Shown here piece after piece: positions 22,946 through 33,712 of a DNA stretch of 64,000 bases. Under the pieces are notes generated by a model. It was not told the DNA's origin. It worked only from the letters and a program-made list of their open reading frames with translations, and did not search any database. The position numbers were made by a program, and so were the translations under genes. Source of the stretch: Nonomuraea roseoviolacea subsp. carminata (GTDB taxonomy: Bacteria > Actinomycetota > Actinomycetes > Streptosporangiales > Streptosporangiaceae); NCBI RefSeq assembly GCF_024172185.1, contig NZ_JAMZEC010000001.1:9089001-9153000 (forward strand). Direction: 5' to 3'. The stretch's first letter is position 1, and the number at the start of each line of letters is the position of its first letter.

Positions 22946-23043
22946 ACGGCCCAGCCTGCTCGGCGCGGTGGGCGCGGTCTTGAACATCCTTGCGCCCGGC
23001 CGCGCTTCCTCGCCGACACTCGTCGGGCAGCCCCCTCTCCCAT

Positions 23044-23091
23044 TTGGTGGCGTTCAGCACCATGCATTACGATACGGGGCGTGGCGTATCG
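23044..23091 (+). promoter_or_regulatory. Leaderless promoter and operator of the TetR gene
   Basis: TTGGTG (23044-23049) and TACGAT (23068-23073) are spaced by 18 bases, with the GTG start seven bases after the -10 box. CGATAC and GTATCG (23070-23091, 10-base spacer) form an inverted repeat that covers the -10 box and the start codon. This fits autorepression. Confidence 0.65.
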
Positions 23092-23779
23092 AAAGAATGT
23101 CGAGGAGCCGGCGCGCGGCCGTCCCCGTGACGCGGGTCTGGACCAGCGGATCACTGCTGTCGTCCTGGAGGTGCTGGCGGAGTCCGGTTACGAGGGGGTG
23201 TCCTTCGAGGAGGTCGCCCGGCGGTGCCGGACATCCAAGGCGAGCCTGTATCGACGGTGGGCGTCCAAGCGGGAGATGGTGATCGCCGCGGTCAAGACCG
23301 GGGCCGCACAGCGCGGGGCCGGCGAGCCGATCGACACGGGCAGCCTGCGCGGGGACGTGTTGAGCCTGTGCCGGCGCCTGGACCGGACCATGCGCGCCAC
23401 GGACAGCCGGACCGCGATGCTGCTCCTGCAGGCGGGCCTGGAGGACCCGGACCTGTGCGAGGCCATCGAGAACGCCGTCGGCCCGACAGGAGCCCGGTTG
23501 CCGCGACAGGTCATCGACGCCGCGATCGCACGCGGCGAACTGCCCGACGGCGCGGACCCTTTCGCGTTCGAGGAAGTGGTCGGTGCCGCCCTCCTGCTGC
23601 GACGGGTCAACGACCTCGCGGTCGACGAGGAGTACCTGTCCGCACTCGTCGACACCATCGTCATCCCCGCCCTGAAGGCATCGTCCGGGCGGGCTCCCCT
23701 GCCCGCCGGGATCTTCTCCGGCCACCCGGCCCCCACCACCCATGAGAGCGCCGCCCCTGACGCGAAGGAGAACGCATGA
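23081..23779 (+). CDS. TetR/AcrR family repressor
   Basis: The 232-residue protein has an N-terminal helix-turn-helix: QRITAVVLEVLAESGYEGV then FEEVARRCRTSKASLYRRW, about residues 20-63. The C-terminal ligand and dimer domain is variable, as usual. GTG 23081 is supported by a -10 box seven bases upstream and the conserved HTH position. Its stop overlaps the start of the next gene (ATGA), so the regulator and the hydrolase are translationally coupled. The inverted repeat over its own start is the best candidate operator. Confidence 0.9.
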   Translation: MAYRKNVEEPARGRPRDAGLDQRITAVVLEVLAESGYEGVSFEEVARRCRTSKASLYRRWASKREMVIAAVKTGAAQRGAGEPIDTGSLRGDVLSLCRRLDRTMRATDSRTAMLLLQAGLEDPDLCEAIENAVGPTGARLPRQVIDAAIARGELPDGADPFAFEEVVGAALLLRRVNDLAVDEEYLSALVDTIVIPALKASSGRAPLPAGIFSGHPAPTTHESAAPDAKENA

Positions 23780-24678
23780 CCAGCCGACCGACGATCGACG
23801 GCTTCGACTACCAGGCCATCCCCGGCACCGACGGCGTCGGCCTCAACGTCGCCGTCGGCGGGAGCGGGCCGGCCGTGGTCCTCCTGCACGGCTTCCCGCA
23901 GACCCACTACATGTGGCGCCACGTCGCGGCGAGGCTCGCCGACGACCACACGGTCATCGTCCCTGACCTGCGCGGATACGGCGACAGCGACAAGCCGGAC
24001 GGGAGTGACCCCGCCGCGTACTCCAAGCGCACGATGGCTCAGGACATCGTGACGGTCGCGTCCGCCCTCGGCGTCGACCACTTCGGGCTCGTCGGGCACG
24101 ACCGCGGTGCCCTGGTCGCCGTCCGCGCCGGCTTGGACCACCCCGCCGTCGTGGACTACCTGGGGATCCTCGACGTCCTGCCCACCCTCGACACGTGGGC
24201 CGTTCTGCGGGGAGCCGACGCCAAAGTCGCCTGGCACCTGTACCTGATGGCTCAGCCCATCGGGCTTCCCGAGAAGATGATCCGCGCGGTCGCTCCGGAG
24301 TTCTTCGGCTCCTTCCTGGACGCGTGGGACCCCAACGGCACGACGTTCACCCCTGAGGAACGCGCCTACTACATCGACAGCTCGGTCGCCGCGATCGACT
24401 CCATCGTGGCCGACTACCGGGCCACCGCGAGCATCGATCTGGAGATGGATCGAGCCGACCGTGAACGTGGCGCGCGGCTCGCGATGCCGGTCGGCGTCAT
24501 CTCACAGGACTGGGGCTCCCGGCTCGGCTTCGACGCCGCGTCACTGTGGCGGGCCTGGGCGCCGGACCTGACCTACCAGCCGACCACGTCCGGGCACTTC
24601 ATGGCCGAGGAGAACCCCGACGAGATCGCCGCCTTCATCACCACCCTCGCGACGCGCCCGAGCACGCGGACCCGCTGA
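23776..24678 (+). CDS. Alpha/beta hydrolase with Asp nucleophile (haloacetate dehalogenase- or epoxide hydrolase-like)
   Basis: The 300-residue enzyme has the oxyanion motif LLHGFPQTHYMWR and the nucleophile elbow GLVGHDRGALVAVR. Asp, not Ser, stands at the centre, as in fluoroacetate dehalogenases and epoxide hydrolases. PDLRGYGDSDKPDG is shared with both groups. The catalytic His is in TSGHFMAEE near the C-terminus. The DRGA context and the DLRGYGDS motif fit the haloacetate dehalogenase group well, but substrate cannot be proven from sequence. It should act in the cytoplasm and is likely controlled by the TetR gene with which it overlaps by four bases. Confidence 0.87.
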   Translation: MTSRPTIDGFDYQAIPGTDGVGLNVAVGGSGPAVVLLHGFPQTHYMWRHVAARLADDHTVIVPDLRGYGDSDKPDGSDPAAYSKRTMAQDIVTVASALGVDHFGLVGHDRGALVAVRAGLDHPAVVDYLGILDVLPTLDTWAVLRGADAKVAWHLYLMAQPIGLPEKMIRAVAPEFFGSFLDAWDPNGTTFTPEERAYYIDSSVAAIDSIVADYRATASIDLEMDRADRERGARLAMPVGVISQDWGSRLGFDAASLWRAWAPDLTYQPTTSGHFMAEENPDEIAAFITTLATRPSTRTR

Positions 24679-24727
24679 TCGCACCCCATCACGTGAATTG
24701 TCGGAGGCGGCCGGTAGCGTGCGCGGG

Positions 24728-25585
24728 GTGCGTTCAGGTGTGCGGCTCGCCAGCGGGCCGGGGTTCGTGGTTCATGCGGTGACCTGCGTCGACGACCATC
24801 GCGGGTGGTCGCCGGTCGAGGTGGGGTCGGCTCATCAGCTCGTGCTGCCGAGGCGGGGCCGCTTCCGGCGGATGGCCGACGGTCGCGGCGCGCTGGTGGA
24901 CCGGGCGATGGCCTACCTGTCGCTGCCCGGCCAGGAGGAGCGGTTCGCGCACCCGGCGGGCGGCGACGTGTGCACCGTGCTGCGCCTGTCGCCCCGCCTG
25001 TGGGAGGTCCTCGCGGGTGACCGCGGACGTCCGGCGCGTTCGACGGTCTACGTGGACGCCCGGCTCGACCTGGCCCACCGCCGGCTGCTGGCCGCGACGC
25101 GCAGCGGCGACCCCGCGTACGAGCTGACCGAGGCCCTGCTGCCCCTGCTGGCCGCCTCCCTCAGCCGCGTGGCCCCTCCCCCGGCCGCCGGCGGAGGTTC
25201 GCGCGGGCCCGGGCGGACGGCGGGCGCGGTGGTCGACGCGGCGCGCGAGGCCATCGCGTCCGATCACGAGGCGGCGGGCGGGCTGATGACGCTGGCCGAG
25301 CTCCTGTCCGTGTCGCCGTACCGGCTGAGCAGGGCGTTCACCAGCGAGCTGGGCGTGTCGCTCACCCACTACCGCAACCGGGTGCGGGTCGGCAGGGCGC
25401 TCGACCGGCTGGAGGCCGGGGAGCAGAGCCTGGCGCGGCTGGCGGCCGATCTCGGCTTCGCCGACCAGGCCCACCTGACCCGCACCATCCGCCGCCACGC
25501 CGGCCACACCCCGGCCGCCCTGCGCCGCCTGCTGGGCCACGCGGGTGCGCGGCCCGGCACGCCGCCGGAGGCGGGATCGGCATGA
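24728..25585 (+). CDS. AraC-family transcriptional regulator
   Basis: The 285-residue protein has a cupin-like N-terminal sensor (about 1-110, with AYLSLPGQEERFAHPAGG) and a C-terminal AraC DNA-binding domain. The two HTH units are LMTLAELLSVSPYRLSRAFTSELG and SLARLAADLGFADQAHLTRTIRRHAGHTP. GTG 24728 is chosen because TAGCGT stands seven bases before it, the leaderless pattern seen elsewhere here. GTG 24719 with an upstream GGAGG is the alternative. It follows the hydrolase gene by 49 bases but seems to have its own promoter. Target genes are unknown. Confidence 0.87.
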   Translation: MRSGVRLASGPGFVVHAVTCVDDHRGWSPVEVGSAHQLVLPRRGRFRRMADGRGALVDRAMAYLSLPGQEERFAHPAGGDVCTVLRLSPRLWEVLAGDRGRPARSTVYVDARLDLAHRRLLAATRSGDPAYELTEALLPLLAASLSRVAPPPAAGGGSRGPGRTAGAVVDAAREAIASDHEAAGGLMTLAELLSVSPYRLSRAFTSELGVSLTHYRNRVRVGRALDRLEAGEQSLARLAADLGFADQAHLTRTIRRHAGHTPAALRRLLGHAGARPGTPPEAGSA

Positions 25586-25788
25586 TCCCGGCCGCGCCGG
25601 CCTGCCGGTTGCGGCCGGCAGCTCAAGCAGAGCCGACGGCCGGCGGCCCGGCAACGGCGAGTGCCGTCACCGTCCCACGCACGATGGGCACCACCCAGCG
25701 GCGGCTCCCCGGGATCGCAGATCGCACGGGGTCGGCCGGATTCGCGTGAGTACGGGCGGCCTGGAGGTGAGATTCCTCCGAGCCGCCC
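25573..25788. terminator. Three small hairpins between convergent genes
   Basis: GGGATC/GATCCC pairs at 25573-25589 over the AraC stop. CTGCCGG/CCGGCAG pairs at 25602-25621. A longer stem with GGGCGGC and GCCGCCC arms plus a CTGGAGG/CCTCCGA inner helix spans 25754-25788. The 280-base gap holds no gene, and the hairpins probably end both converging transcripts. Confidence 0.5.
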
Positions 25789-25865
25789 GACTTCCGAGAG
25801 CGACGGGAACGAGCCGTCGCGAGCAGCGACCTCAGCGGCGAGGACGGTGCCGACGGGGTCGCTGA

Positions 25866-26261
25866 TCAGCCGCGCTCGTCGCCCGTCCAGTCCTTGTTGA
25901 AGCCCCCGAGATGGGGGTGGTACATCTCGTCGCCCGTGTGCTGCGTGAACTCGACCTTGATCCAGAGACGGTCGAGCTCGAACAGGTCGACGCATGTGTC
26001 GATCAGTGCTTGTGCGAGTGCCGCCCGGGTCTCGCGGGGACGTCCGCTCCGGATGTCGCACATGATGAGGGCGGACGGTGTGGGGGCGCCGTCCTCGTGG
26101 CAGCGCCAGACACCGCCGTGCCCGAGATCGTGGATGGAGACGGTCAGCAGGTCGGCGTTGACCGCCATACGCTCGGCGTAGATCTGTCCGAAGCGTGCGG
26201 CGAGCTCCTGCTTCGAGGAGGCGGGCAGGTCGAGGGGGAGGTCGATCTGGATGGATGGCAT
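25866..26261 (-). CDS. Tautomerase-superfamily protein
   Basis: The 131-residue protein begins MPSIQIDLPLDL, so Pro1 would be exposed as the catalytic base after Met removal, the hallmark of the 4-oxalocrotonate tautomerase/MIF superfamily. It is longer than 4-OT (62 residues) and close to the MSAD/cis-CaaD class with two fused beta-alpha-beta units: the second begins PSALIMCDIRSGRPRETRAALAQAL. It is the last gene of a four-gene operon, 33 bases after the amidase gene. An enol-keto isomerisation or hydration step after C-N bond hydrolysis is a reasonable inference. Confidence 0.83.
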   Translation of the reverse strand: MPSIQIDLPLDLPASSKQELAARFGQIYAERMAVNADLLTVSIHDLGHGGVWRCHEDGAPTPSALIMCDIRSGRPRETRAALAQALIDTCVDLFELDRLWIKVEFTQHTGDEMYHPHLGGFNKDWTGDERG

Positions 26262-26294
26262 GGGCGGAGTGCCTTTCGCGCGATTCGGCGGTTG

Positions 26295-27656
26295 TCAGGC
26301 TGGAGTGGTGGCGGCGTTCTCGATGCCGGTGGCGATCGCGAAGAGCCGGTCCTCTCCTCCTGCCGCGGTGATCAGCTGAACTCCGACCGGCAGCCCGTCG
26401 AGGAATCCCGCCGGGACGCTCAGGGCGGGGACGCCGGCCATGTTCCACGGGCTGGTGAGCGACAGCAGCGCCGTGCGCGTCTCGACCGTCGTATCGCCGG
26501 CGTGCACCGTTCGCTGGTCCACCTGCGGGGCGACGATGGGGACGGTCGGTACGGCGAGGACCGGGTGCTGGGCGAGCAGGCGCAGCACGAGGTCGCGAAA
26601 CTCCTGCCGCGCGCGATCGGCCGACGCGTACCGCTCGGCGGTGATCGACTGCCCGGTCCTCAGTCGCGCCAGCACGTCCGGGTCGATCAGTGACTCCTCG
26701 CCCGGAAGATGTGTCTCGTGGACGGCGAATGCCTCGTGTCCCTGCAGAGCCGAGAACGTCCGGAACAGGTCCCCGGTATCGCCCAGGAGTCCGGACACCG
26801 GATAGAGGTCCACTCCGCTACGGGCCAGACGGTCGTGCGCGATCCGGGCGACCCGCGGGTCGGTCGGCGCGATCTGCTCCGGGGAGATCCAGGCGACCGG
26901 CTCGCCGTGGGCCGGGCTCACGCTCGCCGGGGTGGGCCCGTGAGACGCGCCGCTGAGCGCGCGGTACGCGACCAGCGCGTCGTGGCTGGTCATCGTGAAC
27001 AGCCCGACATGATCGAGCGTCGGGGCGAGGGGGTAGACGCCGCCGGCGGGCAGCGCGTCGTAGGCCGGCTTGAACCCGACGATCCCGCACAGGGCTGCCG
27101 GCACCCGCACCGAGCCCGCCGTGTCGGTGCCGACCGCCAGGGGCACCATCCCGGATGCGACCGCCGCGGCGCTGCCTCCGCTGCTACCGCCGGACATGCG
27201 CGTCGGGTCGATCGGGTTACGGGACGGGCCGTGCACCGAGCGGTCGCCTGTCGCGCCGTAGGCGAACTCGTGCAGCGTGGTCTTCCCGACGATCACGGCC
27301 CCGGCCTGCCGGAGCCGCGTCACGATCTCGGCGTCCTCGCTCGCCCGGGCGGTCCCGAACGATGACGCCGATCCGCACGTGGTCGGTAGTCCGGTCATGT
27401 CGATGATGTCCTTGACCGCGACCGGCACGCCGTGCAGCGCTCCGCGATCGATCCCCGCCGCCAGGTCGGCGTCCGCCTGCTCGGCGGCGGCGAGTGCCCC
27501 GTCCTCGTCGATGAGGACGAAGGCGTTCACCGCGGGGTTGCGATCTTCGATCTGTCGCAGTGCCGCACGGGCCAGCTCGACGGCCGAGGTCCTCCTCTCG
27601 CGCAGCGCAGCGCCCAGATCGGCGATCGTGGGAGGTGTGGTGGTGTTGTTGTTCAT
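26295..27656 (-). CDS. Amidase-signature family hydrolase
   Basis: The 453-residue enzyme carries the Ser-cisSer-Lys triad: Lys in GVPVAVKDIIDMTGL near residue 80, the cis-Ser in RMSGGSSGGSAAAVA, and the nucleophile Ser in LAVGTDTAGSVRVPAALCG. It should hydrolyse an amide to acid and ammonia in the cytoplasm. FKPAYDALPAGGVYPLAPTLDHVG matches GatA-like folds, but the gene is not near gatB or gatC. ATG 27656 overlaps the upstream membrane protein gene by ATGA, giving translational coupling. With the nitrilase gene in the same operon, a two-step nitrile/amide or carbamoyl route is plausible. Confidence 0.9.
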   Translation of the reverse strand: MNNNTTTPPTIADLGAALRERRTSAVELARAALRQIEDRNPAVNAFVLIDEDGALAAAEQADADLAAGIDRGALHGVPVAVKDIIDMTGLPTTCGSASSFGTARASEDAEIVTRLRQAGAVIVGKTTLHEFAYGATGDRSVHGPSRNPIDPTRMSGGSSGGSAAAVASGMVPLAVGTDTAGSVRVPAALCGIVGFKPAYDALPAGGVYPLAPTLDHVGLFTMTSHDALVAYRALSGASHGPTPASVSPAHGEPVAWISPEQIAPTDPRVARIAHDRLARSGVDLYPVSGLLGDTGDLFRTFSALQGHEAFAVHETHLPGEESLIDPDVLARLRTGQSITAERYASADRARQEFRDLVLRLLAQHPVLAVPTVPIVAPQVDQRTVHAGDTTVETRTALLSLTSPWNMAGVPALSVPAGFLDGLPVGVQLITAAGGEDRLFAIATGIENAATTPA

Positions 27657-28816
27657 TGCAGTGGTCCTTGGAGCATGGAGAGCAAGGGCACGATCACGGC
27701 CGTGCAGATGCTCATAGCGGCGACGTTGCCGACGAAGGGGTGGAATCCGGACGGGAGGCGAGCCGAGATCGCGGCCGCCATCGGGGGTGAGATGACCGCG
27801 CCGGCGACTGCGGCCAGCAGGGTCGGGAGGAGCGCGCCGTCGCAGGCGAGCACCGCGGCGGGGACGACGCTCACCACGGGGACGAAGGTCGGGTAGAAGC
27901 CCGCCGCCCGCCATCGGCGCCGCCATACGATCACTCCGACCAGGGCGGCGAGCAGCTGTCCGATCAGGACCGTGAGGAACAGGCCCGAACCGTAGACGAG
28001 CGACTGCGGAGCTGTCGCATAGGCGAGGAGGGCGCCGACGAGCAGGGCCCCGCTCGCCCATTCGTTGCCGAAGAACTGGGCCTCGGACATGTCCGCCAGC
28101 GCTCGCCGGAGCACCCACGCCGGCCCGTAGTCCGCAGGCCGCTGCTCGGCGGCCGCGGTCTCGGGCGTGGTCGAACGCCATGCCCAGGGTTCGGGCATCC
28201 ACGGCAGCCGGGGGCAGATCACGAACGCCACCGCGGCTGCCAGAGTCATCGCGGCCGTCGCACCGACGACCGGCGGGAGGCCGAGCGGGTGGCAGACCCA
28301 GGTGACCAGCGCGATCGCCGCGGGAGGGACGAGCAACGCGCCGGCGACCGCGGCCGTGAGGACCACCCGCCGGCCGGGCCCGTACAGGACGACGACCGCC
28401 GGTGCGACGGATACGAGGGGAGCGAACAGGGGCTGCCAGGTGCCGCCGGCCAGGGTCGTGCCCCACAGCAGTGCGCTGAGGAGGACGCTGAGGAGTGCGG
28501 CACCGGCGACCGGGGGCCAGATCCCGGTTCCGCAGGCTTGGACGAAGCCCTGCGGGTGCCAGTTGCGGCGATGCGCCACGTGGCCGGCGAGGCCCCCGAC
28601 AAGGAGGAGGGCGCTCGCGGTTCCGGCGGCGTAGAACTGCGGTTCGGAGATCGCCGCCAGGACCCATCGGGCCAGGCCGGCGACGTCGCTGTAGTCGCCC
28701 TCCCAGGCCGGCGCGTAGGTCGTCGAGGTCCACAGGACCGCGCTCGCCAGGACGACGAACGCGGCCACCCCGAGGGCCCGGCGAGAGGGTTTCACCAGGT
28801 CGAAGCCGGCTTTCAC
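27653..28816 (-). CDS. Polytopic membrane protein with two homologous halves, unknown function
   Basis: The 387-residue protein has about ten hydrophobic segments and two halves that resemble each other. SEPQFYAAGTASALLLVGGLAG in half 1 matches SEAQFFGNEWASGALLVGALLAY in half 2. GFVQACGTGIWPPVAGAALL matches GFYPTFVPVVSVVPAAVL, and CHPLGLPPVVGATAAM matches FHPFVGNVAAMSICTAV. I do not recognise the family. The start is GTG 28816, four bases after the nitrilase gene. Its place between two C-N hydrolases suggests transport of their substrate or product, or a membrane enzyme; neither is shown by sequence. Confidence 0.78.
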   Translation of the reverse strand: MKAGFDLVKPSRRALGVAAFVVLASAVLWTSTTYAPAWEGDYSDVAGLARWVLAAISEPQFYAAGTASALLLVGGLAGHVAHRRNWHPQGFVQACGTGIWPPVAGAALLSVLLSALLWGTTLAGGTWQPLFAPLVSVAPAVVVLYGPGRRVVLTAAVAGALLVPPAAIALVTWVCHPLGLPPVVGATAAMTLAAAVAFVICPRLPWMPEPWAWRSTTPETAAAEQRPADYGPAWVLRRALADMSEAQFFGNEWASGALLVGALLAYATAPQSLVYGSGLFLTVLIGQLLAALVGVIVWRRRWRAAGFYPTFVPVVSVVPAAVLACDGALLPTLLAAVAGAVISPPMAAAISARLPSGFHPFVGNVAAMSICTAVIVPLLSMLQGPLQ

Positions 28817-28820
28817 GACG

Positions 28821-29732
28821 TCACCGGGGCAGCGGCGGCGCGCCGCGGTAGCCGAGCATCTGGTCGTAGAGGTCCGTCCGTCGGTCGCGATGCAGGTCGT
28901 TGAGCTGGTTCCAGATGGGTGCCGTCCTCGTGGCGGTGAGGTCGACGTCGGCGTAGATGATGGTGTCCTCGTCAGGGCCGGCGATGCGATCGATCGGCCA
29001 CCCGTTGGTGCTCGCGATCAGCGAGTTGCCCATGAAGCCGGCGCCGCGCTCCTGCCCCGTACGGTCGGCCGTCGCGATGAAGATGTTGTTGGCATGCGCC
29101 GCGGTGATCGTCAGATGGGCGGCCATGCAGACGCCGCTCGCGTCGTAGAGCGGTGGCGGCGTCCACACCCAGCCCGTGGGGACGCAGATGATGTCGGCAC
29201 CCATCTGGGAGACGATCCGCGCGGTTTCGGGGAACCAGATGTCCCAGCACACCAGCAGCCCGATCCGGCCGATCCGGGTGTCGAAGACCTTGAAGCCCTC
29301 GTCGCCGGGGGTGAACCACAGCTTCTCGGTGTTCCACAGGTGCGTCTTCCTGTAGCGGCCGATGTAGCCTTCGGGGCCGACGAGCACGGCCGTGTCGTAG
29401 AGCCGTTCGCCGTCTCGCTCGACGACGCAGCCGACGATGTACATGCGGTGCTCAGCCGCGATCCGCTCGAACATCTGCAGCGACGGTCCGTCCGGGACCG
29501 TCTCGGAATGCGCGAACGCCTCCTCACGCGTTTCGAAGACGTAGCCGGTCGTCGCCAGTTCGGGAAGGACGACCAGGCCGGCACCTGCCTCACCGGCTGC
29601 GTTCAGACGCTGCTCGACCGCGGAAGCGTTCGCCTTGAGGTTCTCCACTCCGACCTGTGGCTCGAACTGGACGACGGCCACCCGGACCGGGCTCACCCTT
29701 GTCTCGTCGGTCGCTGCGACGCTCTCGGACAT
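28821..29732 (-). CDS. Carbon-nitrogen hydrolase (nitrilase superfamily)
   Basis: The 303-residue enzyme has the full Glu-Lys-Cys triad: Glu in VLPELATTGYVF, Lys in GRYRKTHLWNTEK, and Cys in GLLVCWDIWFPE, with an extra Glu in this last motif as in the superfamily. It acts on nitriles, amides or N-carbamoyl compounds in the cytoplasm. The pattern is closer to amidase or carbamoylase branches than to true nitrilases, which have longer sequences. ATG 29732 follows AAGGAG. It is the first gene of the operon, with its own promoter in the divergent space shared with HxlR. Confidence 0.9.
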   Translation of the reverse strand: MSESVAATDETRVSPVRVAVVQFEPQVGVENLKANASAVEQRLNAAGEAGAGLVVLPELATTGYVFETREEAFAHSETVPDGPSLQMFERIAAEHRMYIVGCVVERDGERLYDTAVLVGPEGYIGRYRKTHLWNTEKLWFTPGDEGFKVFDTRIGRIGLLVCWDIWFPETARIVSQMGADIICVPTGWVWTPPPLYDASGVCMAAHLTITAAHANNIFIATADRTGQERGAGFMGNSLIASTNGWPIDRIAGPDEDTIIYADVDLTATRTAPIWNQLNDLHRDRRTDLYDQMLGYRGAPPLPR

Positions 29733-29750
29733 GTAACTACTCCTTGGTAG

Positions 29751-29816
29751 CTAGTTCAAAAAGAAGACTGGATAAGCGAAGAGTAGGGTTAGTGGTACAG
29801 TTTTGCAACTAGTTCA
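29751..29816. promoter_or_regulatory. Divergent promoter region with CTAGTTCA direct repeats
   Basis: CTAGTTCA occurs at 29751-29758 and 29809-29816. On the minus strand TTGCAA (29808-29803) and TACTCT (29785-29780) are spaced by 17 bases and point at the nitrilase operon. The repeats flank this promoter and are likely HxlR binding sites. The stretch is AT-rich for this genome. Confidence 0.55.
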
Positions 29817-29847
29817 GGATCTGATTTCCGTACGACGGGAGGACCGG

Positions 29848-30306
29848 GTGGGAGCATCGAAGGAGGCACTGACGTCCGCGGAGTGCCCCGTCGCGCGGGC
29901 GGTCAGCGTGGTCGGGGACCGGTGGTCAGTACTGATCGTGCGGGACGTGTTCGACGGGATATGCCGCTTCGGCGAGTTGCAGCGAAGCCTCGGCCTCTCC
30001 CGCAACATCCTCACCGAGCGGCTCCGCACCCTCGTGGCGCAGGGAGTGCTCGAGACCAGGCCCGCCTCGGACGGCACGGCCTATCACGAATACGCGCTGA
30101 CGAAGAAGGGCTCCGACCTGTTCACGGTCCTCGTCGCGCTGCGGCAGTGGGGCGAAGGGCATCTCTTCGCAGAAGGGGAACAGCACTCGGAGCTGCTGGA
30201 GATCGACGGCGACCGGCCGATCCGCAAGCTGGAACCGCTCGACATGGAGGGCCGGCCCATCACGTATCGCAACGCCTACGTCCGCAAGGTGTCGCACGCG
30301 AACTGA
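29848..30306 (+). CDS. HxlR-family transcriptional regulator
   Basis: The 152-residue protein has the HxlR winged helix: ECPVARAVSVVGDRWSVLIVRDVF, then FGELQRSLGLSRNILTERLRTL and YALTKKGSDLFTVLVAL. A Cys in the ECPV motif is the redox or electrophile-sensing Cys in several members of this family. GTG 29848 follows GGGAGGA and is preferred to the upstream in-frame ATG 29803, which lies in the promoter. It is divergent from the nitrilase-amidase operon by 115 bases and most likely regulates that operon and itself. Confidence 0.9.
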   Translation: MGASKEALTSAECPVARAVSVVGDRWSVLIVRDVFDGICRFGELQRSLGLSRNILTERLRTLVAQGVLETRPASDGTAYHEYALTKKGSDLFTVLVALRQWGEGHLFAEGEQHSELLEIDGDRPIRKLEPLDMEGRPITYRNAYVRKVSHAN

Positions 30307-30674
30307 CGGCGCCGCGCGCCGGAGGGCTTCACCCGTTTCGCCATGCCGGCGGATCGGCCAGGTCAACCATCTCTGGCTCCCCCAAAGACACTCGCCTGGG
30401 CCCGTGTGGGCCGGCACAGCGCTTCAGCGTCGGCGTGGACGCGGGCCGAGCGCGGTGATGCGAACGAACGGCCCGGCGTGCCCCCCGAGCGCGCAAGCGC
30501 TCCTGCGGAGCTGCGGGCGGCGGTAGTGCCGGCCCCGCTTCGCGTCTGGTGCTTGCTGACCATGTCGCCCCCTTTCGCGACCGTGGGTGCCAGGCGGCCA
30601 CCTGGCCGCGGGCCTTCAGCGATCCGCTGCGGGCCCTTCGGCCGAGTCGGGTCCGTTCGCTCTCTTGCGGATCG
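30307..30674. other. Intergenic stretch without a recognisable gene
   Basis: No frame shows the codon bias of neighbours. Short hairpins are present, such as GCCCGTGTGGGC near 30400. I cannot identify a tRNA, riboswitch or insertion-sequence end. It may be a decayed gene or a non-coding RNA locus. Confidence 0.5.
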
Positions 30675-30727
30675 GTTGCAAATTGCAACTAACCTCAGAG
30701 TACGACATGATGGTTGCAGAATGCAAC
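30675..30727 (+). promoter_or_regulatory. Two copies of GTTGCA-N3-TGCAAC palindrome
   Basis: Perfect 6-base arms occur at 30675-30689 (spacer AAT) and 30713-30727 (spacer GAA), 38 bases apart. A possible -10 box (TACGAC) lies between them, and AGGAGG follows at 30733. The layout is that of a repressed promoter bracketed by two operators, pointing to the short frame at 30743. Confidence 0.65.
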
Positions 30728-30742
30728 TGTTCAGGAGGCGTG

Positions 30743-30985
30743 ATGACTCGTACCACGATCAGCGCCGACGATGTGACCTGGACCGATGCAGCCGCCGGGC
30801 AGGAAAAGGGGCTACGCCAAAGGGGCGAGACGCTTGCGACAGCGATCCCGACGACGACGGGGACTGGCCTGCACCTACGCGGAGCCGTCTTGTGGGTCCG
30901 AAGCCTCCGGCCGGCCTGGAGATCCGAACCCCATCCAGGCTCTAGCGGGGGTCCGGCAGAAGCGTACGGATGGCGGCGGCGATGA
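30743..30985 (+). pseudogene. Short open frame behind an operator-bearing promoter, probable gene remnant
   Basis: ATG 30743 has a good ribosome site (AGGAGG four bases upstream) and a strong regulatory region. The 80-residue frame begins MTRTTISADDVTWTDAAAG, then loses typical codon bias and ends in Arg-rich sequence inside the convergent nucleotidyltransferase gene. I recognise no domain. The likely reading is the 5' end of a regulated gene whose body was deleted. A real small protein cannot be excluded. Confidence 0.35.
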
Positions 30986-31412
30986 CGGGGTCGACGGCGA
31001 ACCGCTTTTCCAGCCAGTTGAGGGTGACCGTCGCGGCCTCCCTGCTGTGCTCGTACCCGGGGACCATCTCGGCCAGGGGCAGCACATCGGGCGCGTGGAG
31101 CGAGCTCCCCGAGGTGAAGATCGCGTACTCGGCGAAGATCCCGTCGGCGAACAGCGCCTTGCGCCCGTTGCGGTCGTTCGCGAAGCTGTACGCCACCGGG
31201 CAGGGCTGCTGCAACCAGTCGATGGACTCCAGGTAGCGGGATTTGGCGGCGTCCTCCACGACGACGAAGAAGTCCAGGTCGGAGTGCTCGTCGAACCGGT
31301 CGTGCTCCACGCCGGCCGAGCCGAGGCCCAGCAGCGCGAGCGCGTCGCCGCGCGTGGCCAGGTGGGCGGCCAGGTCGTCCAGCCGTCGCAGCATGGGGTG
31401 CATCCCGGTCAT
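30942..31412 (-). CDS. Nucleotidyltransferase-fold protein
   Basis: The 156-residue protein has the polymerase-beta-like nucleotidyltransferase motif LLGLGSAG followed by HSDLDFFVVVED, with the paired Asp that bind metal. The layout resembles aminoglycoside adenylyltransferases or lincosamide enzymes, but it is shorter than ANT(3'')-type enzymes (about 260 residues) and lacks their C-terminal helical domain. A resistance role is therefore uncertain. ATG 31412 follows AGGA by six bases; the upstream frame start at 31454 is less likely. It is isolated on its strand and overlaps the remnant frame at 30743 end to end. Confidence 0.75.
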   Translation of the reverse strand: MTGMHPMLRRLDDLAAHLATRGDALALLGLGSAGVEHDRFDEHSDLDFFVVVEDAAKSRYLESIDWLQQPCPVAYSFANDRNGRKALFADGIFAEYAIFTSGSSLHAPDVLPLAEMVPGYEHSREAATVTLNWLEKRFAVDPVIAAAIRTLLPDPR

Positions 31413-31470
31413 CTGTTCCTGATCCCGTCGTGGAAACGCCACGCCCCTCAACACCAGGGGGCCGCAGCCG

Positions 31471-32775
31471 TCAACGTACGCGCCACCAGGCGGCGGAGTC
31501 GGCGGCGAGACGGGCCACCCCGTCGCCGGCCACGAGGGGCGCGCTGGCCAGCAGGAGTTCGCCGTCGACCGCCGGCTCCAGCGGCCGGTCGCTCATGTTG
31601 ACGGTGCAGACGAATCCGTCGCCACGGGCGAAGGCCAGGCTTCCCTCCGGGGAGTCCAGCCAGGTGAGGGGGCCGCCACCGAGGCCGGGGAGCTCGCGGC
31701 GCAGGCGCAGCGCCGCCCGGTACAGGTGCAACGCCGACCCGGGGTCCTGCTCCTGCGCCTCCACGCTGAGCTCGGCCCAGGAGTCGGGCATGGGCAGCCA
31801 GGGGGCGTCGGCACCGGGCGGGGCGAAACCGAAGGGCCTGGTCTTCGTCCAGGGAAGCGGCACCCGGCAGCCGTCGCGGCCGCTGTCCGGGGCGCGCAGC
31901 CGCTGCGGGTCCTGCAGGTACTCCTCCGGCAGGTCGAGCACCTAGGGCGCCCACGCCTCCGCCACCCCGATCCGCTCCCCCTCGTAGGAGTCGAGGATCC
32001 GGCGCCAGGCGCGGTGGATCTCGTGCACGCCGTCCTGGTCGAAGAACGGCACCACCTCCGCGCCGATCATGCGCACCTGGCCGGGATGACCGACGTCGGG
32101 CAGGCCCGGCGCCTTGATCATGCCGTGCGCCACGTCGATCCGGAAGCCGTCCACCCCGAGGTCCAGCCAGAACCGCAGGATGTCGGCGAACTCCTCGCGC
32201 ACCGGCGGGTGCTCCCAGTTCAGGTCCGGCTGCTCGGGCGCGAACAGGTGCAGGTACCACTGCCCGTCCGGCAGCCGGGTCCACGCCGGTCCGCCGAAGA
32301 TCGACTCCCAGTCGTTGGGCGGCAGCTCCCCCTGGGCGCCCCTGCCGTCGCGGAAGACGTAGTACTCCCGCTGCGGGCTGCCCGGGGCGGCCCGCAGCGC
32401 GGCCTGGAACCAGGGGTGCCGGTCGGAGGTGTGGTTGGGCACCACGTCCACGATGATCCTGAGCCCGTGCCGGTGGGCGTCGTCGATCAGCTCCCTGGCG
32501 TCGGCCAGCGAACCGAAGACCGGGTCCACGTCGCGGTGGTCGGCGACGTCGTAGCCGAAGTCGGCCATCGGGGACGGGTAGAACGGTGTCAGCCAGACGG
32601 CGTCCACGCCGAGGTCGGACAGGTACCGCAGGCGGCTGCGCACGCCGAGCAGGTCGCCGATCCCGTCGCCGTTGCCGTCGGCGAAGCTGCGGACGTACAC
32701 CTGGTAGATCACCGCGTCCCGCCACCACCGGGTCGCGACCCGCGGCGCGATGGCGTTCTCCATGAGGTCGGTCAC
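31471..32775 (-). pseudogene. GH13 alpha-glucosidase, broken by internal deletion and in-frame TAG
   Basis: The 5' part (32775 to 31945) encodes an intact GH13 N-terminal half: WWRDAVIYQVYVRSFADGNGDG, VDAVWLTPFYPSPMADFGYDV, IIVDVVPNHTSDRHPWF, GVDGFRIDVAHG with the nucleophile Asp, and GVAEAWAP with the acid/base Glu. Directly after this comes TAG (31944-31942). The same frame then continues with VLDLPEEYLQDPQ to WWRVR at 31471, which is the C-terminal part of the same enzyme family. Between them GH13 enzymes normally have over 100 residues including the NHD motif with the third catalytic Asp. These are absent, so a deletion rather than a point mutation made this pseudogene. It belongs to the ABC importer operon at 32846-36009. 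Confidence 0.88.
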
Positions 32776-32845
32776 TGCTTTTCCCCGATCGTCGTGGGTG
32801 GGGAGGGCATGTCCATGAGATACGGATGAGGAGGCCGGCGGGCCG

Positions 32846-33712
32846 TCACATCTTGGTGGCGCCGCTGGTCAGACCGGCCACGAGATGGCGTTGCACGAGC
32901 AGGAAGACGATCGCGGCGGGGATGGCGATCAGCACGGCCGAGGCGGTGAGCAGCCCCCAGTCGGACCAGTGCTGACCGACGAACTGCTGAAGCCCGACGG
33001 CGAGCGTGCGCTTCTCCTCCTGGGACATGAACACCGAGGCGTAGGCGACCTCGCCCCAGGCGGTCATGAAGCAGTAGAAGGCGGTGACCGCGACGCTGGG
33101 CCTGGCCAGGGGCAGCACGATCCTCCAGAACGTGCCGAACGGGGTCAGCCCGTCGATCAGCCCCGCCTGGTCGATCTCGCGCGGGATGGTGTCGAAGTAG
33201 CTCTTCATCATCCAGGCGCAGAACGGCACGGCCACGGTGAGATAGGCGACGACCAGCCCCGCGATCTGGTTGAGCAGTCCGAGACGGGCCATGAGGTTGT
33301 ACAGCGGCACGATGAGGATCGCCACGGGGAACATCTGCGTGACCAGCAGCAGCCACATGACCCCCCGATGGCCGGGGAAGCGGAACCTGCTGATCGCGTA
33401 GCCGGTGGTCGCGGCCACGAACACGCCGAGGATCATGGTCAGCACGGCGGCGAGGACGGAGTTGAGCAGCCAGGTGGGAAACGCCGTCTCGGTCAGCACC
33501 CGCGTGTAGTTCGCCAGTGACGGCTGGTTGAAGATCTCGAGCTCGGACGACAGCCAGCCGTCGCGCGGCTTCAACGACGTCAGCAGCAGCCAGAGCACCG
33601 GGAACAGCGAGATGGCGGTGGCGAGCAGAAGCGTCCCGTGCAGGAGGACCGAACCGGCCGGGCTTCGCCGGTGACGGCCGCGCGTTCCGGCGCCCGTGGT
33701 GATGTCGCTCAC
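32846..33712 (-). CDS. Sugar ABC transporter permease (MalG/carbohydrate uptake family 1)
   Basis: The 288-residue inner-membrane permease has six hydrophobic segments, beginning LLHGTLLLATAISLFPVLWLLLTS. The EAA loop that docks the ATPase is DTIPREIDQAGLIDGLTPFG. The sequence FCAWMMKSYFDTIP before it fits MalG-type proteins. Its start overlaps the upstream permease gene by four bases (GTGA or ATGA type), so the two are coupled. The ATPase subunit is not in the operon, as is common in actinomycetes where one MsiK-like ATPase serves several importers. Confidence 0.92.
   Translation of the reverse strand: MSDITTGAGTRGRHRRSPAGSVLLHGTLLLATAISLFPVLWLLLTSLKPRDGWLSSELEIFNQPSLANYTRVLTETAFPTWLLNSVLAAVLTMILGVFVAATTGYAISRFRFPGHRGVMWLLLVTQMFPVAILIVPLYNLMARLGLLNQIAGLVVAYLTVAVPFCAWMMKSYFDTIPREIDQAGLIDGLTPFGTFWRIVLPLARPSVAVTAFYCFMTAWGEVAYASVFMSQEEKRTLAVGLQQFVGQHWSDWGLLTASAVLIAIPAAIVFLLVQRHLVAGLTSGATKM

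Follow-up and report, generated by a model that had tools for sequence, protein, structure and literature searches.

Gene organization of the locus

We analysed a 64,000-nucleotide stretch of the genome of Nonomuraea roseoviolacea subsp. carminata (contig NZ_JAMZEC010000001.1, positions 9,089,001 to 9,153,000; hereafter, the window), and focused on five genes that together form a small operon with a divergent regulator (Table 1). On the minus strand, the genes are transcribed in the order nitrilase, membrane protein, amidase, tautomerase. Our results show that this operon is real, conserved and mobile. The nitrilase and membrane protein genes are separated by 4 bp (28817-28820), the membrane protein and amidase genes overlap by 4 bp (27653-27656), and the amidase and tautomerase genes are 33 bp apart (26262-26294). 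These spacings agree with the first-pass annotation, which had described the same tight packing next to a divergent HxlR gene.

Table 1. Genes and operator-like features of the operon in the window.
Feature	Position	Strand	Basis
Tautomerase-superfamily protein, 131 aa, Pro right after Met1	25866..26261	-	open reading frame
Amidase-signature amidase, 453 aa	26295..27656	-	PF01425 E=2e-93
Membrane protein, 387 aa, GTG start, predicted SLC14 urea-transporter fold	27653..28816	-	AlphaFold2 model
Nitrilase-superfamily (CN_hydrolase) enzyme, 303 aa	28821..29732	-	PF00795 E=3e-50
Nitrilase-side operator-like box, degenerate, AGTTCAAAAAGAAGACT	29753..29769	+	hand alignment to Streptomyces boxes, 41-bp spacing
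HxlR-side operator-like box, degenerate, GGTACAGTTTTGCAACT	29794..29810	+	9/16, not significant alone
HxlR-family regulator, divergent	29848..30306	+	PF01638 E=6e-21

The regulator scored 74.6 bits against the winged-helix model PF01638 (cut-off 20.8), and is therefore a member of the HxlR family. Its start is best placed at the GTG at 29848, because four relatives (L034-L037) start at a matching MG[AS]SK. The GC content of the operon stretch is 69.6%, versus 73.4% for the whole window, and ranks 22nd lowest among 298 segments of equal size; this difference is slight and not decisive as a sign. A search of positions 23000-33000 against Rfam gave no match, and a scan for sigma-70 promoters and terminators found none.

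Conservation and mobility

By homology search, the membrane protein is present in 15 of the 297 genomes of the family to which the window belongs, its own genome included. An alignment of 15 members then served as query against genomes sampled at one per species. The best 80 of the 86 confirmed loci, together with the window, make up the set of 81 membrane-protein loci discussed below. The first-pass annotation had suggested looking for the same gene set in other actinomycetes, and regarded disrupted synteny in relatives as a result that would speak against an operon. The set was indeed found: the divergent HxlR gene, nitrilase, membrane protein, amidase and tautomerase (type A) are all present and keep the same order in each of the 17 type-A loci, all actinobacterial, from nine named genera (Pseudonocardia, Streptomyces, Kribbella, Amycolatopsis, Phytoactinopolyspora, Mycolicibacterium as a metagenome-assembled genome (MAG), Nocardia, Nonomuraea and Actinomadura). 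Identities to the window are 83-96% for the nitrilase, 68-85% for the tautomerase, 54-78% for the membrane protein, 55-80% for the amidase and 55-84% for HxlR. Pairwise distances among the five genes are correlated (Spearman 0.68-0.94; 91-136 pairs). The type-A loci group together with a support of 0.99 in the membrane protein tree and 0.995 in the amidase tree, and with a support of just 0.05 in the nitrilase tree.

Several observations bear on mobility. Flanking genes differ among the type-A loci. The nitrilase of the window is 96% identical to that of Pseudonocardia eucalypti, but just 86% identical to that of Nonomuraea deserti from the same genus (G003), which points to horizontal transfer. 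The synteny even extends across the phylum boundary, as a plasmid of the root-nodule isolate Phyllobacterium zundukense carries all five genes in the order of the window (nitrilase 75%, the membrane protein, annotated there as 'hypothetical protein', 48%, amidase 36% and tautomerase 48% identical), located between an IS1595 transposase and a pair of resolvases. A Streptomyces plasmid contains, among insertion sequence elements, HxlR, the nitrilase and 44 aligned residues of the membrane protein, while a homology search gave neither an amidase nor a tautomerase match; this copy looks like a decaying operon. In Streptomyces sp. WMMB 322 (L076), the nitrilase was called as two pieces of 237 and 46 aa, from either a calling gap or a broken gene.

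The association can also be approached from the enzyme side. We searched 394 genomes of the class for the nitrilase (E<=1e-85) and the tautomerase (E<=1e-8). The tautomerase was matched in seven genomes, comprising four type-A operons, two operons without the membrane protein and one orphan. The nitrilase was matched in eight genomes, six of which also belong to the tautomerase set, and in each of these six nitrilase and tautomerase are clustered (the membrane protein gene is part of the cluster in four and absent from it in two). The other two nitrilase genomes have a LacI-type arrangement with nitrilase, membrane protein and amidase, and an arrangement of LacI, an asparaginase-like gene (identified by eye on the basis of its start and not with a hidden Markov model (HMM)), nitrilase and membrane protein. 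Thus, from the nitrilase side, an amidase or asparaginase reading frame is adjacent in 8/8 genomes, and the membrane protein in 6/8. The overlap of six genomes has a hypergeometric P of 4e-11, a value that assumes independent genomes, which related genomes are not. The nitrilase-tautomerase arrangement is more than chance.

An alpha/beta hydrolase gene (23776-24678) and an AraC gene (24698-25585) in the flank were rejected as members of the operon. They lie on the opposite strand, and no homologue of either was found within five genes of the membrane protein gene in the 15 other type-A loci mapped (L040 was left out of this mapping). In L124, which covers the same place as L040, a weak match (31%) lies further off.

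A predicted urea-transporter fold

The membrane protein has no match in Pfam or NCBIfam. Its AlphaFold2 model, built from 15 sequences, has a predicted local distance difference test score (pLDDT) of 79.7 and a predicted template modelling score (pTM) of 0.80. In a Foldseek search against the PDB, the top eleven matches were all urea transporters (UTs; best E 0.011, template modelling score about 0.5). VIA-align listed all 15 UT entries at Z 22.8-24.5 over 286-312 residues, with the Amt/Rh fold next at 13.8. UTs are described as trimers with one pore per subunit and channel-like transport, and as having ten transmembrane helices with pseudo-twofold symmetry (PMC10541013). The membrane protein likewise consists of two homologous halves (hhalign 99.6%, E=1.4e-23), and the halves of real UTs gave 99.8% in an equal test; its halves showed no sequence match to the UT halves. 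Glu58 and Glu245 are invariant and paired in the half-versus-half alignment, in a motif that appears to resemble the UT segment Gln/Glu-x-x-Phe. We therefore predict, from the model, that the protein represents a UT-fold channel family and a very distant relative of the urea channels. It cannot be called an ordinary UT, since there is no sequence link. The first-pass annotation had spoken of a 'dedicated membrane protein'. The protein is indeed kept with the operon, and the VIA-align result refines its description to this predicted channel family.

Canonical UTs are rare in actinobacteria (4/296 genomes). In L114, a canonical PF03253 UT adjoins a formamidase (HMM score 657 bits, cut-off 500). 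Acetamidase/formamidase-type reading frames were also seen by eye beside the UT in L115 and beside the canonical PF03253 UT of L116, with HMM confirmation in L114 alone.

The enzymes

The nitrilase belongs to the nitrilase superfamily, with a match to PF00795 and with Glu58, Lys129 and Cys162 invariant in 14/14 homologues; we take these candidate catalytic residues to be the Glu-Lys-Cys triad of the superfamily. It also has its own conserved motifs, CWD[IV]WFP and WVWTPPP. The closest solved relative is the Pyrococcus abyssi nitrilase (3ivz, E=9e-59), an enzyme reportedly active on fumaronitrile. The window enzyme scored 215 bits against the NCBIfam model nitrile_Arch, where the cut-off is 500, and 172 bits against TIGR03381 (N-carbamoylputrescine amidase, AguB), where it is 410. 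Similarly, the amidase is a member of the amidase signature family (PF01425), in which Lys82, Ser158/159 and Ser182, presumably the Lys-cisSer-Ser triad, are invariant in 15/15 homologues. Its best NCBIfam match is the AtzE family, and its second-best solved relative is 6c62, a 1-carboxybiuret hydrolase that is listed as a biuret hydrolase. Its scores against PRK09201 and TIGR02715, 319 and 315 bits, remain below the AtzE cut-offs of 461 and 426 bits.

The last enzyme matched PF01361 below threshold (E=0.016). Yet its AlphaFold2 model (pLDDT 85.4) has the tandem beta-alpha-beta fold which, together with Pro1, places it in the tautomerase superfamily. Pro2, Arg71 and Arg74 (counting Met as 1) are invariant in 16 homologues. 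With Foldseek, the best match was 5unq (TSF Linker 2; 6e-11), followed by cis-3-chloroacrylic acid dehalogenase (cis-CaaD) and 5uif. VIA-align ranked MIF, 4-OT and cis-CaaD alike (Z 14-16), and therefore the assignment to a subgroup rests on the Foldseek order, an identity of about 21% and the two arginines. Assignment to PF14832 (Tautomerase_3) was ruled out, as the sole PF14832 match of the genome lies elsewhere. That separate gene (G000:C1:6738144-6738551, L001; 164.6 bits) is unrelated to the operon.

Probable regulation by HxlR

The gap between the HxlR and nitrilase genes contains two inverted-repeat boxes near GGTTTCAAnTTGAAACC, 38-48 bp apart. We scored 19 such regions (the 17 of type A, L125 and L127), of which 17 reached 12/16 for the better box and 11/16 for the second, each at p<=0.007 in shuffles. 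These p-values are optimistic, because the consensus was read from the same regions. A fairer test is provided by the 35 upstream regions of LacI-type nitrilases, none of which scored as high. Individual boxes in the 17 relatives score 11-14 of 16, and the Phyllobacterium region has related yet different repeats. In the window, the scoring selected 29746-29762 (10/16, not significant alone) instead of the overlapping nitrilase-side box of Table 1. The earlier proposal of a shared regulator thus gains support from the paired operator-like boxes of the relatives, whereas those of the window itself are weak. The operon is probably co-regulated.

The best matches to the HxlR consensus within the window lie elsewhere, at 30674-30728, where the palindromes GGTTGCAAATTGCAACT and GGTTGCAGAATGCAACT score 13 and 11 of 16. 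They are located just upstream of a short, gene-remnant-like open reading frame that starts at 30743. Possibly, they are the operator of another, lost HxlR/MarR-type system.

Variants of the operon

We counted genes within 3.5 kb of the membrane protein gene as its partners. A hydrolase of a family that includes C-N hydrolases was present in 72 of the 81 loci, with a nitrilase in 50, an amidase in 59 and both in 47. Genes in unannotated loci were called by a home-made codon-bias script rather than by Prodigal, so that starts and small genes may be wrong. The script missed the membrane protein gene in L040, L066, L084 and L110, and its call in L088 fell outside the membrane protein cluster.

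Besides the 17 type-A loci, the set contains variants with a class I fumarase (type B, mycobacterial; 11 loci), a MetX-like hydrolase (type C; 9 loci), an alpha/beta hydrolase (type D; 7 loci), an Amidohydro_3 enzyme (type E; 10 loci) or an Amidohydro_1 enzyme (type F; 9 loci, from clostridia with PucR and M20, Rubrobacter and a Thermoproteota archaeon), and 18 other loci, two of them from Erysipelotrichaceae with an acetamidase/formamidase-type gene. For these labels, a marker cluster was counted anywhere in the locus. In two actinobacteria, an asparaginase takes the place of the amidase beside the nitrilase and membrane protein; one of these arrangements, on a Paenarthrobacter plasmid, comprises LacI, asparaginase (PF00710, E=9e-50), nitrilase and membrane protein. 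The asparaginase and fumarase in these sister operons hint at a four-carbon unit. Nitrilase and amidase are retained, but the last enzyme can be a tautomerase, a class I fumarase or a MetX-like hydrolase, so that comparison of the variants could reveal the chemistry.

A dihydroorotase-like amidohydrolase adjoins the UT-like gene in clostridia and relatives (L100, L102, L104, L105, L108 and L109), in the Thermoproteota archaeon (L103) and in Rubrobacter (L085 and L090). The PucR regulator and M20 deacylase of the clostridial loci suggest a cyclic amide or ureide pathway. In the Erysipelotrichaceae MAGs (L095 and L097), the acetamidase/formamidase-type gene (PF03069 E=8e-33 in L095) lies beside the UT-like gene, and both loci also have a divergent gene that is regulator-like in appearance.

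A plasmid of Variovorax paradoxus VAI-C encodes a nitrilase, amidase and tautomerase that are 75%, 37% and 52% identical to those of the window. No homologue of the membrane protein was found on this plasmid. Instead, an ATP-binding cassette (ABC) transporter is located directly upstream of the three enzyme genes, and the best matches of its permease and ATPase are Urt models. On the conjugative plasmid pC of Ancylobacter polymorphus (L140), a nitrilase of 52% identity is followed by genes for an Urt-like ABC transporter and urease. That two unrelated uptake systems of urea type converge on these enzymes is our best clue to the substrate, which would be small, neutral, and amide- or urea-like.

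A probable catabolic operon for a small nitrogen compound

Our reading, to which we assign a probability of roughly 0.7, is that these genes form a mobile, HxlR-regulated catabolic operon for uptake and breakdown of a small neutral amide-, nitrile- or ureide-like nitrogen compound. It builds on the observed gene set, gene order and conservation, the predicted fold, the invariant candidate catalytic residues and the boxes of the relatives; transport and its direction, the substrate, the order of reactions and the behaviour of the regulator are our interpretation. The UT-fold membrane protein would admit a urea- or amide-sized solute down its gradient. The nitrilase-superfamily and amidase-signature enzymes would then cut two C-N bonds in turn, of a nitrile/amide, a bis-amide or a ureide, with release of ammonia. 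The Pro1 tautomerase-superfamily enzyme may convert the leftover small acid, for instance through hydration or decarboxylation if the acid is unsaturated, or through keto-enol tautomerisation. HxlR would bind the two boxes in the divergent promoter region and switch the operon in response to substrate or product. The first-pass annotation had suggested breakdown of a nitrogen-bearing compound or signal. Breakdown is favoured by the conserved synteny, the boxes and the UT fold, but we found no support for a signal.

Several results weigh against this interpretation. PF03253 was found in 0/15 members of the membrane protein family at E<=10, and hhalign of the whole protein against four canonical UTs gave 0.2%, that is, no sequence similarity; the transport role therefore rests on predicted fold and gene context. 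HxlR, nitrilase, amidase and tautomerase also occur in two genomes that lack the membrane protein, which is therefore not indispensable. Conversely, nine of the 81 loci, some on short contigs, have no recognised C-N hydrolase near the membrane protein gene (L059, L064, L066, L071, L079, L084, L088, L107 and L110). Relatives of the tautomerase (46-47%) in Methylobacterium and Paraburkholderia (L134, L135 and L138) lie beside a GlxA-type regulator and/or short-chain dehydrogenase/reductase genes, with no nitrilase in these loci, and the actinobacterial orphan is a relative at 55%. The reaction of the tautomerase may therefore be independent of nitriles or amides. Finally, the boxes of the window and of its nearest relative L034 have drifted to 10 and 9 of 16 (p about 0.15-0.19).

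A less likely alternative is a ureide- or biuret-type pathway, in which the nitrilase-like enzyme would act as N-carbamoyl (ureido) hydrolase and the amidase as a ureide hydrolase of AtzE- or ureidomalonase-like type. The substrate would then be a urea derivative, which would account for the urea-type uptake systems. The AtzE match of the amidase, its relative 6c62, the second NCBIfam match of the nitrilase to N-carbamoylputrescine amidase, and the Ancylobacter nitrilase before transporter and urease genes all fit this explanation. However, both enzymes score far under the equivalog cut-offs (319/461 and 172/410), the nitrilase has an archaeal nitrilase as its nearest relative of solved structure, and neither a tautomerase nor a fumarase has an obvious role in biuret breakdown. 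Somewhat more doubtful is a true nitrile pathway directed at nitriles from plants or the environment, in which the nitrilase acts first, the amidase clears an amide by-product and the channel imports the amide or nitrile. The closest solved relatives of the nitrilase are Pyrococcus nitrilases, its candidate Glu-Lys-Cys residues are invariant, and one carrier, Phyllobacterium, is plant-associated and came from a root nodule. Yet the nitrile_Arch score is 215 against a cut-off of 500, small nitriles pass membranes without a channel, and amidases or carbamoylases are commoner than nitrilases among the members of this superfamily.

An alternative explanation, which we consider improbable, would be detoxification or resistance, with the operon destroying a small toxic amide or antibiotic instead of feeding on it. 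A mobile, patchily distributed operon with its own repressor-type regulator would suit a resistance cassette, and soil actinomycetes do make small toxic amides. An uptake channel, however, is the opposite of what resistance needs, and the LacI-like regulators and class I fumarase of other variants are typical of catabolism. Equally improbable is the view that the membrane protein forms no channel and instead serves as a sensor or as a hydrolase anchor. A fold by itself is no proof of transport, and the protein is missing from two type-A-like genomes, but matching conserved segments are kept in both halves and an ABC importer takes its place in Variovorax.

Within the catabolic reading, a bolder and rather unlikely version is that the membrane protein founds a new UT-fold amide channel family, spanning actinobacteria, clostridia, an archaeon and proteobacteria, and that the operon degrades an unsaturated bis-amide or dinitrile with four carbons, of which fumaramide, maleamide and acetylenedicarboxamide are examples. 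Both nitrogens would be stripped by the nitrilase-like enzyme together with the amidase, and the tautomerase, or the class I fumarase of the mycobacterial variant, would hydrate the unsaturated diacid to oxaloacetate or malate. Hints in this direction are the fumarase in 11 loci, the asparaginase replacing the amidase in two actinobacteria, and the relationship of the tautomerase to cis-CaaD, which was crystallised with acetylenecarboxylate according to PDB entry titles. Acetylenedicarboxamide is the Streptomyces antibiotic cellocidin. A literature search on cellocidin gave a plant metabolomics paper as its sole match.

If our reading of the membrane protein is true, a family annotated as 'hypothetical' is a new branch of urea-type channels that is detectable by fold alone and linked with the breakdown of amides in organisms from archaea to proteobacteria. 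Literature searches gave no title on this gene set, nor on a UT-like protein together with a nitrilase. The idea of a catabolic operon had already been proposed in the first-pass annotation; what is new here is the UT-fold family and the interchangeable uptake system.

Comparison with known systems

The tautomerase of the window shares with cis-CaaD the fold, Pro1 and two arginines (Arg70 and Arg73). The residues listed for cis-CaaD in PMC5818174 are Pro1, His28, Arg70, Arg73, Tyr103 and Glu114. Of these, His28, Tyr103 and Glu114 align with Tyr, Glu and His in the window enzyme, at about 21% identity, where the Glu114 to His pair was aligned by ungapped extension. Hence, an identification as cis-CaaD is ruled out, and with these catalytic residues replaced the reaction cannot be read off.

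The nitrilase has the superfamily and the Glu-Lys-Cys set in common with the P. abyssi enzyme and with N-carbamoylputrescine amidase, but differs from nitrile_Arch and TIGR03381 in its own motifs and in scores far below the equivalog cut-offs. Substrates given for the P. abyssi nitrilase are aliphatic nitriles and malononitrile in PMC4770253, and in PMC10063848 come from docking only. Likewise, the amidase shares the amidase signature and the Lys-Ser-Ser residues with AtzE-type amidases (1-carboxybiuret hydrolase), whereas other atrazine-pathway genes were not noted near it.

In its predicted fold and internal two-fold duplication, the membrane protein resembles SLC14/UT proteins (PF03253; dvUT 3k3f, UT-B 4ezc). 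It differs from them in having neither a PF03253 match nor detectable sequence similarity, and in its nitrilase and amidase partners, although canonical UTs can likewise adjoin amide hydrolases (FmdA in L114). In contrast, the Urt transporters for urea and short-chain amides are an unrelated, ATP-driven protein type. Their Variovorax counterpart, whose genes score below the UrtB/C/D/E cut-offs, nevertheless holds the place before nitrilase, amidase and tautomerase. This exchange of a predicted channel for a urea-type ABC importer before the same three enzymes offers a testable handle on the substrate.

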